Assembly: GCA_945883565.1 (NCBI GenBank)
Contig: CAMCXO010000004.1
Span: forward strand, 1 to 64,000
DNA length: 64,000 nt
DNA from: Chryseobacterium gleum
GTDB taxonomy: Bacteria; Bacteroidota; Bacteroidia; Flavobacteriales; Schleiferiaceae
Direction: 5' to 3'
Positions 51,148 to 56,798 of this stretch are shown here, in pieces (positions within the stretch are counted from its first letter, which is position 1; every line of letters starts with the position of its first letter). Made by a program: the position numbers and the translations under genes. Under the pieces are notes generated by a model, which did no database searches, had not been told where the DNA came from, and worked only from the letters and a program-made list of their open reading frames with translations.

Positions 51148-52458
51148 ATGAAAGCTAAAATGAGGTTGTTGACCATACTTTGTTTAATGCTGTTTGGAAA
51201 ACATTCCTTCGCCCAACTTTATTTCCCGCCAAATGGTTCTAATGCTTGGGATAGTATTTCGCCTGTTACATTAGGTTGGTGTCCATCTAAAATAGATAGC
51301 CTATACGACCTGCTTGAAAGCGAAAATACCAAAGCTTTTATTTTGTTGAAAGATGGAAAAATTGTTTTAGAGAAATACTTTAATGGCCATACACCACAAT
51401 CTTCTTGGTATTGGGCCTCTGCAGGAAAGGGGCTTACAGCCTTAATGGTGGGCATTGCGCAGGAAGAAGATTTTTTGAATATTAACGATACCGTTTCCAA
51501 TTATTTAGGCTATGGTTGGACATCCTGTTCGGCTTTAAATGAAGAACGAATTAGCATAAAACATCAATTAAGCATGAGCAGCGGTTTGAATGATGCCGTT
51601 GCAGACCCATTTTGTATTAGCGTCAGCTGCTTGCAATGCATAGCCTTACCTGGAACACGATGGGCCTATCACAACGCGCCATACACTTTGTTGGATGGCG
51701 TACTTGAAAACGCCACCGGTAGAAATCTAAATGTTTATGTAGCCCAGAAACTCAAAACCCCTACCGGTATGGATGGCCTGTTTGTATCTCAAGGGTTTAA
51801 TCAAGTATTTGTAAGCTCTGCCCGAAGCATGGCCCGTTTTGGGTTGTTGATTCTAAACCGAGGATTTTGGAACAACCAAGCCGTTTTAAGTGATTCTGTT
51901 TACTTCAATCAAATGGTTAACACATCGCAGAGTTTAAATGAAGCTTATGGCTATTTATGGTGGTTAAATGGTAAAAATTCCTTCCGCTTGCCTGAAACCC
52001 AATTCCTGTTTAACGGGAGTTTAATGCCTAATGCACCAGCGGATATGGTCTCGGCCATGGGTAAAAACGGTCAATTTATTAATGTGGTGCCCTCCCAAAA
52101 CCTTGTTTGGATACGCATGGGCGATTCGCCTGATAACGCTTTGGTGCCTTTTGCTTTTAACAACCAAATTTGGTCTTATATAAATGCCTTGAACTGCAAT
52201 GGCGTAGGATCTCCTGAAAACCAAATAAACCGGGAATGGTCAATTTATCCTAATCCGGTCAACCAGCGTTTATTTATTTCAACACCCAATAAAAACATAA
52301 TAGGCACTTATGAAATTATAAAGGCAATGGGCATTTGTGTGGTACAGGGTGATTTTTCTGAATTTATTGATGTCACGCACCTAATCTCTGGTGTCTATTG
52401 GTTAAAGATTGTAACTGAAAATCAGGTCGGGTTTCAAAAATTCATAAAAAACGAATGA
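51148..52458 (+). CDS. Secreted beta-lactamase-fold serine hydrolase with T9SS sorting tail
   Basis: 436 residues. A signal peptide (1-22, ending HSFAQ) precedes a class C beta-lactamase-like domain with SxxK at Ser91-Lys94 (WASAGKG) and the YxN element in WAYHNAPY. The C-terminal 75 residues are a type A T9SS sorting domain (WSIYPNPVNQRLF, ISGVYWLKI). Such proteins are esterases, D-aminopeptidases or penicillin-binding-like; the substrate is unknown. Export across the outer membrane by T9SS is predicted. Confidence 0.9.
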   Translation: MKAKMRLLTILCLMLFGKHSFAQLYFPPNGSNAWDSISPVTLGWCPSKIDSLYDLLESENTKAFILLKDGKIVLEKYFNGHTPQSSWYWASAGKGLTALMVGIAQEEDFLNINDTVSNYLGYGWTSCSALNEERISIKHQLSMSSGLNDAVADPFCISVSCLQCIALPGTRWAYHNAPYTLLDGVLENATGRNLNVYVAQKLKTPTGMDGLFVSQGFNQVFVSSARSMARFGLLILNRGFWNNQAVLSDSVYFNQMVNTSQSLNEAYGYLWWLNGKNSFRLPETQFLFNGSLMPNAPADMVSAMGKNGQFINVVPSQNLVWIRMGDSPDNALVPFAFNNQIWSYINALNCNGVGSPENQINREWSIYPNPVNQRLFISTPNKNIIGTYEIIKAMGICVVQGDFSEFIDVTHLISGVYWLKIVTENQVGFQKFIKNE

Positions 52459-52476: not shown

Positions 52477-53619
52477 TTATTCATCCACACCTAAAGCCAA
52501 AATGGCTTCCAAATTCTCAACCTGAATAAACTGACCATCGGCAGAGCCGAGTTGACCAGTATAAACGACCTTAAGTTTGCGGGTAGGTTCATTAACCCAA
52601 TCATTCAAGTAAGCTTCCACCTCCAAAACCACAATGTTTTGATTGGCATTAGCGTAATACGAAGAAAAGGCCTTCCCATTTTCATCAAAATATATGAGCT
52701 CTCCTTTTCCGAATTGTTGCACATCGTAAACCAAATACGGTGAAATGGTATAATCAAAATCATCATTGCAATGGTTAATGGGCAACAATCCGGATTGGTC
52801 TAATTCGATTTCACGGCAACTTATGTAAATGCACCCATCGTTAAAAACAAACTCTGCACAAATCTCTTGTTTTCCCGCACCCACTCCATACAGAATGCCA
52901 TTTAATCCACTGACCTGAGGAATTCCATTTAACCTCCAGTTCACTTGCTGTAAAGTACCTGACCTTACATACGACTGGGCGTTTAATTGAAAAGGTTGAT
53001 TTTGACTAATATTGAAAGTAGCCTTACAGCCATTTTGAGAAAAGTCGAGGTAATGAGTAATCTCCGTCTCACATCCTCCACTTCGAAGGCTACTCATTTT
53101 AATGGGGTATTGCGCCTGGTTGTTTTCATTGTAGATCACCTCAGGCGACTGAGCCGATGAAAAAGACCCATTGCCCAAATTCCAAAGAATGGATTGGACG
53201 TTTGCAGGGTTTATCATCGCCAAATTAACCTTGTGTAAGTAAGGAATACTTTTACTGCCGCTTTGATGATAACTGCTGTGGGCTCCCGGCTTCAATAAAC
53301 TGTCTACATGTGCTGTTGGGACTCCATTAGGAAAAGCCCTAAACCTAAGAGCAATAGCATTTTTCGGGTTTAAACTGTCAACCGCAAGCAAACCTTCCCA
53401 AATACGAACGCCATTTGTATCGTTATACCGCTTGGTATGCATATAATACCCCTCTTCTCCAGCAGATGCCCTTAAGTTTTGGCCATCGATTTGCATGTTT
53501 AATCCAAAAACCGGTTCAGATCGAAATACACCCGGACTAGAATCTTTCGTACATGCAGTGAGCCAAATGCCCAGAACAAAAGCAAAGCCTCTTAATATAA
53601 AAGACTTAGAAAAGCGCAT
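52477..53619 (-). CDS. Lipoprotein of unknown function in the sigma factor operon
   Basis: 380 residues with a lipobox (FVLGIWLTAC, Cys near residue 23) and a beta-rich body; cysteines occur in GGCETEITHYL and DGCIYISCREIEL. No known family is recognised. Its start lies 14 bp inside the end of the dual-membrane anti-sigma-like gene, so it is the third coupled gene of that operon. An outer-membrane or periplasmic partner of the sensor is a reasonable guess only. Confidence 0.78.
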   Translation of the reverse strand: MRFSKSFILRGFAFVLGIWLTACTKDSSPGVFRSEPVFGLNMQIDGQNLRASAGEEGYYMHTKRYNDTNGVRIWEGLLAVDSLNPKNAIALRFRAFPNGVPTAHVDSLLKPGAHSSYHQSGSKSIPYLHKVNLAMINPANVQSILWNLGNGSFSSAQSPEVIYNENNQAQYPIKMSSLRSGGCETEITHYLDFSQNGCKATFNISQNQPFQLNAQSYVRSGTLQQVNWRLNGIPQVSGLNGILYGVGAGKQEICAEFVFNDGCIYISCREIELDQSGLLPINHCNDDFDYTISPYLVYDVQQFGKGELIYFDENGKAFSSYYANANQNIVVLEVEAYLNDWVNEPTRKLKVVYTGQLGSADGQFIQVENLEAILALGVDE

Positions 53620-54865
53620 AACTTAAATTTAGGCGAAATTGGCGGTTATAATGTTTCTCGTTTTGATTGAAATGTGCATCAAGACTTAAATCCTGTAAAC
53701 CAAAAATATAATCAATACCTATTGAGATCCCCCTGTTAAATCGGTATGAATAGGCTAGACTCAACCCATGGTCATATGAAACAAAAGCATCTTCGAAACC
53801 ATTTTCTTGCCATTGGGTGTGTTGCCAACTCGAACTGCCTTCTGGCATATGGCTATGCAAAACGTTGTTACCCAAATTATACATGTAAGAATAATAATAA
53901 CCGGCTTTTATTTGATGATTTTGTTTGAATCGGTACGTTATTCTAAGAGGAACCTCAAGAAACTGGGCCGATTGGGCCGTAATCACGTAAGTTTCGCGTT
54001 CAGCTCCAAAACTATAGCGAACACCTTCTAATTTTCGTTCGAGATGCATGTCGCCTCGTTTCAACCAAGTTAAACCGCTTTCGACACCCAATTGGTTGTT
54101 GATGGCATAGTGGACCCAAGCCCCGAATCCATAATTTGAAAAGCCCGATTCCGGAGACTTACCATTTGAAATGCGGTTTGTAAGCCCTGCAAAAGCCTGA
54201 ATGCCAAAGCCAAGCTGAGACCATGAGTTCCTGACTTTGGGATAAGGTGAATTTCTGGACCATTCATTTCGTTGAATCATTTCGGTGTTGTAAAACATCT
54301 TTTCATATCGAAAAACATCCTGAATTGGTCGTATATCAATAAAAACCAATTGCTTATTGTTAAAGTCCTCTACCCCACCCTGTTTAGAGCTTGCATTTAT
54401 TGATTGCTTTTTTGAAGCTAAAACAGATTTAGTGCTTGAATTCAAGTCCTTTGGTAATGATGATTGCCTGCTTCTTTCTGGTTTTTTGAGTAACTCAAGA
54501 TTGCCTACCGCATGAGACCCACTTTCGTTTTTAGAATCTCCTTTCGATGAAGGGTTTTCATCTTCCGATGGTGCTTCAGATTTTTTTATGTCAGTAGGAA
54601 TGGCTGCTGAAGACCCTGCATCGACAGGCAGATTTTTGGTCTCAGCCTTATTGGATTGGTTGACGTTCCAAACCAATACAAAAATGCTGGTTAAGGCTGC
54701 TACTGCCAATGCCGAAGCTTTAGCCAAAACAGCCGGTTTTGAATACCATGGCATTTGAGCCTTGTCTAGCATAGATGAAAGCTTGTTCCATGCCTCTGCA
54801 TTGTACGGCACTTCGCGTTCTGCGAATTTTTTTTGAAACAGCTTTTGCAACTCTTTTTCGGTCAT
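53606..54865 (-). CDS. Dual-membrane-spanning anti-sigma-like protein with C-terminal beta-barrel
   Basis: 419 residues with an unusual layout: a short N-terminal cytoplasmic segment (1-37, no signal peptide), one inner-membrane helix (about 45-66, VLAKASALAVAALTSIFVLVW), a Ser/Lys/Asn-rich disordered linker (about 67-200), then a C-terminal outer-membrane beta-barrel (about 212-419, alternating strands, last residues NLSYALF). This matches the Dma anti-sigma factors described in Bacteroides thetaiotaomicron, which link the outer membrane to a cytoplasmic ECF sigma factor. Its ATG overlaps the sigma factor stop (ATGA). The role as anti-sigma factor is inferred from layout and context. Confidence 0.8.
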   Translation of the reverse strand: MTEKELQKLFQKKFAEREVPYNAEAWNKLSSMLDKAQMPWYSKPAVLAKASALAVAALTSIFVLVWNVNQSNKAETKNLPVDAGSSAAIPTDIKKSEAPSEDENPSSKGDSKNESGSHAVGNLELLKKPERSRQSSLPKDLNSSTKSVLASKKQSINASSKQGGVEDFNNKQLVFIDIRPIQDVFRYEKMFYNTEMIQRNEWSRNSPYPKVRNSWSQLGFGIQAFAGLTNRISNGKSPESGFSNYGFGAWVHYAINNQLGVESGLTWLKRGDMHLERKLEGVRYSFGAERETYVITAQSAQFLEVPLRITYRFKQNHQIKAGYYYSYMYNLGNNVLHSHMPEGSSSWQHTQWQENGFEDAFVSYDHGLSLAYSYRFNRGISIGIDYIFGLQDLSLDAHFNQNEKHYNRQFRLNLSYALF

Positions 54866-55524
54866 AAGAAAATGGTTGCTACTTTGTTCATCATATTTTT
54901 AAGCATGTCTTTCACCGTTTTGCGGGCGGTTGAAAGGTGCCACTTCGAAGTTCCTTCTGAGATATTGAGCATCTCTCCAATTTCTTTGTGGTTGTAACCA
55001 TCCACCACATAGAGATTAAACACTTTTTGGCTCATTGGAGGCAGCTTGCGAATCATGGCTTCTAAACCTTCGGCATCAAAACGAAGGTCGGCCTCGTTGT
55101 AGTCCATAGTATCGAGAGGCAAGCTGTGGTCGAAGCTTTCGTAAAAGCTGTGTTTATCGTTATTCCTTTTTCTAAATTCGTCGATAATGGTATTAATGGT
55201 TACCCTTTTGGCCCAAGCTTCAAAAGGAATATTGTCGGCGTATTTATCGAGTCTGGTTAAAATTTTAAAGAAGGCATTATTGAGGTGGATTTCAGCTTCT
55301 TCTTTGCTTTTTTCGTAGCGCAGGCAAACATTCATAAGCATGCTGTAGCATTGCTTGTAAAGTTCGTTTTGAGCCCTCCGGTCGTTTTGGCGGCAGCGCT
55401 CGATAAGAGAGGGGTCTATAGCCACTTTATGCACCTTGCTTTCGTGCAAGTTACGCAAAGTACCTTCATGCTTAACACCCTCTTCCATTTGAAAAATCCC
55501 GTGTTTTTTTGAGTTTTTTGCCAT
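54862..55524 (-). CDS. ECF-type RNA polymerase sigma factor
   Basis: 220 residues. Sigma region 2 (about 45-115: NELYKQCYSMLMNVCLRY, PFEAWAKRVTINTIIDEFR) and region 4 (about 155-205: LPPMSQKVFNLYVVDGYNHKEIGEML, shown here as NLYVVDGYNHKEIGEML) are clear. It directs transcription to a stress or envelope regulon when its anti-sigma partner releases it. The ATG at 55524 is only 7 bp after a GC-rich hairpin; the ATG at 55488 is an alternative start that would lose 12 basic residues. It leads a three-gene coupled operon. Confidence 0.92.
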   Translation of the reverse strand: MAKNSKKHGIFQMEEGVKHEGTLRNLHESKVHKVAIDPSLIERCRQNDRRAQNELYKQCYSMLMNVCLRYEKSKEEAEIHLNNAFFKILTRLDKYADNIPFEAWAKRVTINTIIDEFRKRNNDKHSFYESFDHSLPLDTMDYNEADLRFDAEGLEAMIRKLPPMSQKVFNLYVVDGYNHKEIGEMLNISEGTSKWHLSTARKTVKDMLKNMMNKVATIFL

Positions 55525-55530
55525 TAAAAC

Positions 55531-55553
55531 GGCGGCCTTTTTTTAAGGCCGCC
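55531..55553 (-). terminator. GC-rich hairpin between pfkB and the sigma factor
   Basis: A 9-bp perfect stem (GGCGGCCTT 55531-55539 with AAGGCCGCC 55545-55553) and a 5-base loop. On the minus strand it is followed by GTTTTA then the sigma factor ATG. It can end pfkB transcripts or fold next to the sigma factor start and limit its translation. Confidence 0.65.
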
Positions 55554-55626
55554 GCTTGTGCTTTGGTTTTTCCGGATTGCTCCTTTCTCAATGATTAATA
55601 CGGCCGAAATGTTCGAATGGTTGGAA

Positions 55627-56725: not shown

Positions 56726-56798
56726 CGGGATGTAGCGCAGGTGGTAGCGCACCACGTTCGGGACGTGGGGGTCGCTGGTTCGAGTCCAGTCATCCCGA
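56726..56798 (+). tRNA. tRNA-Pro (anticodon CGG)
   Basis: A complete cloverleaf. Acceptor CGGGATG/CATCCCG, D-arm GCGC/GCGC, anticodon stem CCACG/CGTGG around loop TTCGGGA (anticodon CGG, reading CCG), T-arm GCTGG/CCAGT with TTCGAGT loop, discriminator A. The 3' CCA is not encoded. The start CGGGATGTAGCGCAG is typical of bacterial tRNA-Pro. It stands alone between convergent and divergent protein genes. Confidence 0.95.

Follow-up and report, generated by a model that had tools for sequence, protein, structure and literature searches.

An ECF sigma factor, a predicted membrane-spanning barrel anti-sigma factor and a conserved lipoprotein companion in Bacteroidota

In TonB-dependent transducer/FecR-type signalling, a signal at the outer membrane reaches an ECF sigma factor across the periplasm, and in this type of surface signalling the barrel and the anti-sigma factor are separate proteins. 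In Bacteroides thetaiotaomicron, Dma1 and Dma2 are anti-sigma factors whose domains reach from the outer membrane into the cytosol, and the loss of either raises vesicle production via its sigma factor (PMC13088901). Dma1 works by way of NigD1 (bt_4005), a NigD-like protein that is induced when Dma1 is lost and is needed for the ensuing vesiculation; dma2 lies beside a DUF4943, a DUF4858 and one enzyme-like gene, and dma2-adjacent genes are among the most upregulated in a dma2 mutant (PMC13088901). The Phocaeicola vulgatus pair M0N98_03761/03760 consists of a sigma factor and a large anti-sigma factor reaching an outer-membrane barrel, and answers envelope attack by the toxin BcpT; upon treatment the sigma gene goes up, as do three NigD-type genes (PMC9308784). 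The EcfO pair of Bacteroides fragilis is a similar combination of a sigma factor and a barrel-spanning anti-sigma factor (PMC9308784, its reference 24).

Here we analysed a locus in a stretch of 64,000 nucleotides (the window) in which an ECF sigma gene is followed by a gene for a predicted anti-sigma factor joining cytoplasm, inner membrane, periplasm and outer-membrane barrel in one chain, as in the Dma1/Das1 and Dma2/Das2 systems, an arrangement found in Bacteroidota only. Unlike those systems, it has a dedicated lipoprotein of another family (Lpp) coupled to the barrel gene. The locus likewise resembles the P. vulgatus and B. fragilis pairs in its sigma factor and its anti-sigma factor spanning to a barrel, and differs in that the described P. 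vulgatus pair has no Lpp-family lipoprotein. In contrast to TonB/FecR-type systems, barrel and anti-sigma factor would here be a single chain and the barrel is small and OmpA-like.

Layout of the locus and the sigma gene

The sigma, barrel and lipoprotein genes follow one another in that order on the minus strand (Table 1), and the open reading frame list bears out the three genes, the extent of the locus and the 14-bp overlap of barrel and lipoprotein genes given in the original prediction. The sigma and barrel genes overlap by 4 bp (ATGA). Since the identical trio recurs in identical order in dozens of genomes, the arrangement is well beyond chance.

Table 1 Features of the locus in the window
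Feature	Position	Strand	Basis and remarks
Sigma gene	54862..55524	-	ECF-type; 220 aa as annotated; Sigma70_r2/r4_2 above cut-off
Putative Dma-like anti-sigma factor with outer-membrane barrel	53606..54865	-	419 aa; ORF, Pfam in orthologues, AlphaFold2, fold match
Putative cytoplasmic anti-sigma unit (hairpin of two helices, residues 3-36)	54758..54859	-	AlphaFold2 and unit profile; 2-4 copies in some relatives
Predicted inner-membrane helix, residues 44-68	54662..54736	-	AlphaFold2 and sequence; 25 residues, hydrophobic
Predicted disordered periplasmic linker, residues 69-217 (~150 residues)	54215..54661	-	AlphaFold2 and lengths in relatives
Predicted C-terminal outer-membrane beta-barrel, residues 218-417, OmpA/Ail/OmpX-like	53615..54214	-	AlphaFold2 and PDB comparison
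Lipoprotein (Lpp), third gene	52477..53619	-	380 aa; ORF, orthologue alignment, AlphaFold2 model
Lipoprotein signal peptide	53554..53619	-	Lipidated Cys23; mature start CTKDSS, a partial surface-export signal
Lpp N-terminal beta domain, residues 39-137	53209..53505	-	Signature G46...A53-G54...T62
Lpp two PKD/Ig-like domains, about residues 141-192 and 196-277	52789..53199	-	
Lpp C-terminal beta domain, residues 288-377	52489..52758	-	AlphaFold2
Terminator-like GC hairpin and U-run	55526..55557	-	z -4.1 against shuffles for a 112-nt stretch

The sigma factor matches Pfam Sigma70_r2 and Sigma70_r4_2 above their cut-offs; a cognate sigma factor of group ECF21 is one mark of the Dma family, and the best curated model for the window's sigma factor is the ECF superfamily model TIGR02937 (E 5.5e-23). 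Its true start is probably the ATG at 55488 (codon 13, 36 bases further in, giving 208 aa) rather than that at 55524, because the LR(N/T)L motif directly after the Met at 55488 is kept in three orthologues (L062, L063 and L066) and the annotated ATG directly follows a strong terminator-like hairpin. This hairpin sits between the upstream kinase gene and the sigma gene, with its U-run touching the annotated start codon. Eight or nine other genomes of the window's family (loci L065, L067, L069, L070, L072-L074, L085 and L087) have a conserved ATTGTTCGGTTGT box in the sigma leader, some 100 bases ahead of the gene. After the box come a hairpin and a U-run, which stop 5-15 bases short of the sigma ATG. 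The leader hairpin after ATTGTTCGGTTGT carries two-sided (compensatory) changes in 8 of its 13 base pairs, and box and hairpin together may be either an attenuator or a promoter plus terminator.

The surroundings are shared by 18 loci of the family to which the window belongs, L067, L073 and L083 among them, the gene names being given by sequence recognition: a PfkB-type sugar kinase gene lies upstream of sigma, and downstream of the trio come an opposite-strand biotin-carrier-like gene, an unknown gene and a gene for an RseP-type site-2 protease, this downstream part being absent in the window. The window has a convergent gene at 51148-52458 for what appears, on sequence only, to be a beta-lactamase-like serine hydrolase with a type IX secretion C-terminal domain. 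A plus-strand tRNA gene (56726-56798) lies between the kinase and response-regulator genes. The window's genome also holds a second sigma/barrel pair on contig C46 (L245, 2588-4491), which lacks the lipoprotein and comes after a gene for a secreted PKD-type protein, as well as an ordinary sigma/short anti-sigma pair on contig C3.

The barrel protein and its cytoplasmic unit

An AlphaFold2 model of the barrel protein, built with an alignment of 53 relatives, gave helices at residues 3-15, 23-36 and 44-68, disorder to about residue 217 and a barrel at residues 218-417, that is, the order of cytoplasmic tail, inner-membrane helix, disordered linker and barrel in one chain that had been proposed from the sequence. 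Mean pLDDT is about 86 for the hairpin and mostly above 93 for the barrel, against 62-80 near the membrane helix and values near 41-55 for the linker; the best PDB matches of the barrel are OmpA, Ail and OmpX. The window's protein matches Pfam OMP_b-brl with E 6e-5, under that model's cut-off, and an OMP_b-brl_2 match was found in 28 of 30 orthologues. The predicted architecture is thus that by which Dma proteins are recognised (a cytoplasmic part, a single inner-membrane helix, a linker and a C-terminal barrel, encoded beside an ECF sigma gene). The linker measures 99-240 residues (median 146) and, as modelled, would be long enough to cross the periplasm in every one of the 52 relatives measured.

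A continuous chain between the two membranes would be lost if constitutive proteolysis split the barrel from the cytoplasmic tail and signalling ran via the fragments. The RseP-type protease gene, three genes downstream in the 18 loci mentioned above, could be read in this way, although it stands behind an opposite-strand gene and is absent from the window. Against such splitting, the window's protein sequence has no obvious signal-peptidase-like site after the membrane helix, the cleavage between tail and barrel that the original prediction had named as its own refutation, and in the 52 relatives the linker is never shorter than 99 residues, as expected of a spanning tether. We therefore consider constitutive splitting improbable; proteolysis upon a signal is compatible with the Dma-type function that we hold to be the best explanation.

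The N-terminal stretch itself had no convincing match in Pfam. A model of 34 positions, built from the N-termini, recovered the two-helix unit in 119 of the 131 proteins encoded beside this sigma class, including short anti-sigma factors that lack a barrel (for example at the Mucilaginibacter locus L172). Two to four tandem copies are present in 17 of the 131 anti-sigma factors, in separate lineages, namely genus g7 of the window's family (L077, L081, L084 and others), family f13 (L123 and L124) and Fluviicola (L149); further loci with two to four copies are L078, L080, L083, L086 and L152. Because of this distribution, barrel-less proteins and tandem repeats included, the unit is likely to be the working part of the protein, and its spread and repetition appear to be the strongest sequence evidence that the tail handles the sigma factor. 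One receptor with tandem units might hold several sigma molecules.

The same observations bear on whether the barrel protein could be an ordinary outer-membrane protein that merely shares the operon of the sigma gene, its N-terminal stretch serving as an odd export signal. The separation of barrel and anti-sigma factor in TonB-type systems gives this reading some footing. However, the 43 residues ahead of the 25-residue hydrophobic helix are predicted to be helical and seem unlike a usual signal peptide, and it is the unit, not the barrel, that is common to short barrel-less anti-sigma factors beside the same sigma class and that is repeated in tandem. This makes an ordinary outer-membrane protein highly improbable.

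The N-terminal 61 columns align with a Tannerellaceae protein from a sigma/barrel pair, at locus L192 (hhalign probability 96.2 percent, E 2e-9), which suggests that the cytoplasmic unit has a homologue in Bacteroidales, again in a pair of sigma factor and barrel protein. Coevolution analysis between unit and sigma factor gave a weak signal that is not decisive: Asn53 of sigma and Tyr21 of the unit were the top pair, with a score of 1.72-1.79, slightly above shuffled maxima of 1.42 (s.d. 0.19) or 1.30 (s.d. 0.15), from about 86 effective sequences and with relatedness uncontrolled. A search for natural sigma-barrel fusions found none among the matches listed. The resemblance to Dma proteins suggested from the start is borne out in the predicted architecture and in the homology of the unit to the Bacteroidales pair, the likeness to B. 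thetaiotaomicron Dma proteins being one of architecture, and a Dma-type anti-sigma function of the barrel protein is very likely.

The lipoprotein family and its conservation

The window's lipoprotein had no match in Pfam or NCBIfam. Among 28 members of its family, none matched the NigD models of Pfam, NCBIfam gave nothing useful, and PKD_4 matched nine (E up to 0.1, best 4.9e-9), the window copy not being one of them. Lpp thus appears to be a new family, with no Pfam or NCBIfam family beyond the PKD-like matches in some relatives; the earlier statement that the lipoprotein matches no family holds at that level, its middle part being PKD/Ig-like. NigD-like lipoproteins are comparable in adjoining a Dma-type sigma system (at locus L192) or being controlled by one, and differ from Lpp, which lacks a NigD match and has this middle part. 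The AlphaFold2 model of Lpp is all-beta with a mean pLDDT of 88.9, and the predicted strands may be read as two Ig/PKD-like domains flanked by one domain at either terminus. Cys23, Phe38, Gly46, Ala53, Gly54, Thr62, Leu78, Trp146 and Trp228 are invariant in the alignment of members. Comparison with the PDB returned common Ig/FnIII folds and no specific relative among the matches listed; the surface glycan-binding protein B of Bacteroides fluxus, the best single-domain match (Z 6.4, rmsd 2.1 over 80 residues), was not above background.

A C-X-K-(D/E)2 sequence after the lipidated Cys is a surface-export signal, LES (PMC5080379). Lys is found at position +3 in 75 percent of Lpp members, compared with 30 percent among 46 further lipoproteins of the analysed loci, but no more than 9 percent of members carry the full signal and the window copy has it in part, so surface exposure of Lpp is possible, though unproven. 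Some trios adjoin a gene for a larger secreted protein with PKD-like domains resembling the middle of Lpp (L123, 6072-7733; L124, 6521-8488; L138, L141, L158 and L161), possibly a regulon member or a source of Lpp domains.

Lpp is a conserved companion of the sigma/barrel pair. It lies directly downstream of sigma and barrel in 29 of the 31 loci of the window's family, and about 64 loci were counted in all, some 60 of them outside the window, every full-length copy seen adjoining a sigma/barrel pair; the co-occurrence in other genomes that the original prediction had proposed as a check is thus observed. Two genomes of the window's family (G001 and G004) keep sigma and barrel without Lpp, so the lipoprotein is not strictly needed. 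For the wider survey, the sigma alignment was run against named genomes and the loci obtained were annotated; a scan of genome contigs with the barrel protein alone gave no matches, whereas the sigma alignment did find loci. The trio was also found in Crocinitomicaceae (Brumimicrobium and Fluviicola), Saprospiraceae, families f18 and f20 and other Bacteroidota MAGs, and duplicated modules occur in G099, G108 and G012 (two tandem trios in family f13, two separate ones in G012). When the Lpp alignment was run against the phylum sample at E 1e-12, no full-length Lpp came up outside the window's genome; as the first look of this search is loose and it missed divergent members recovered later, we do not take the result to show absence.

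In a tree of the sigma factors, a single group of 63 rows takes in 53 of the 56 that bear Lpp; its other ten rows lack Lpp, three of these being contig ends; the three remaining Lpp-bearing rows (genus g6) are divergent and lie outside. More distant relatives (Flavobacteriaceae, Chitinophagaceae and others) mostly have sigma plus barrel, or sigma plus a short anti-sigma factor, without Lpp. Of 57 loci, 37 have overlapping barrel and Lpp genes, and in 43 the two are within 10 nt of each other. A mirror-tree comparison of barrel and Lpp gave a tree-distance correlation of 0.58 after removal of the sigma signal, and the adjoining kinase gene gave a similar value in those loci that allowed the comparison, so this analysis does not single out the barrel/Lpp pair.

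At the Tannerellaceae locus L192 (4932-7599) a sigma factor, a barrel anti-sigma factor and a NigD_N-like lipoprotein (E 5.4e-14) are encoded in one row, and thus two unrelated lipoprotein families hold the third place in two branches. This parallel fits a co-sensor as well as an output of the pathway. If it were an output, signalling would still be of the Dma type, and the lipoprotein would be an envelope-protective or vesicle-related member of the regulon, made together with the barrel protein because the operon is autoregulated. The unrelated gene at L192 speaks for such an output, as do the need for NigD1 in vesiculation and the upregulation of dma2-adjacent genes noted above (PMC13088901). 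Strong translational coupling and the near-constant co-inheritance of one lipoprotein family exceed what an output gene needs, a point that is not decisive, as nigD1 is induced on loss of Dma1, and we regard the output role as possible but less likely than a part in the signalling complex.

A possible three-part signalling route

The gene order, the overlaps and the conservation of the trio, all observed, together with the predicted topology, suggest that a signalling design known with two parts may include a third, conserved one, the lipoprotein. We favour, with some reserve, a three-part envelope-signalling operon in which the most likely role of Lpp is that of a barrel partner anchored in the outer membrane. 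By analogy with known Dma systems, the 34-residue cytoplasmic unit would hold the sigma factor; one membrane helix would anchor the chain in the inner membrane, the disordered linker would cross the periplasm and the small OmpA-like barrel would lie in the outer membrane. If some event there altered, displaced or cut the barrel or linker, the sigma factor would be released, for which Dma-type proteins offer precedent (PMC13088901, PMC9308784), and the freed sigma factor may transcribe its own operon and envelope genes, autoregulation again being taken from known Dma systems. Lpp, made in step with the barrel protein, could sense the signal or set its threshold as a partner of the barrel, a role suggested by the conserved coupling only.

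The chances that the lipoprotein belongs to the signalling complex are about even. In a bolder and more tentative version, Lpp would be a true third component bound to the barrel, a sensor joined by one polypeptide to the sigma-holding unit, and lineages with tandem units would hold several sigma factors per receptor.

The trio extends the Dma architecture past gut Bacteroides. The putative tandem sigma-binding units raise a testable question of stoichiometry, and Brumimicrobium salinarum is a member of the trio-bearing group with isolates, so that deletion genetics is feasible. Since the Lpp family travels with one large Dma branch across several Bacteroidota families, it is a specific candidate for the sensing or tuning component still missing from the picture of these systems.
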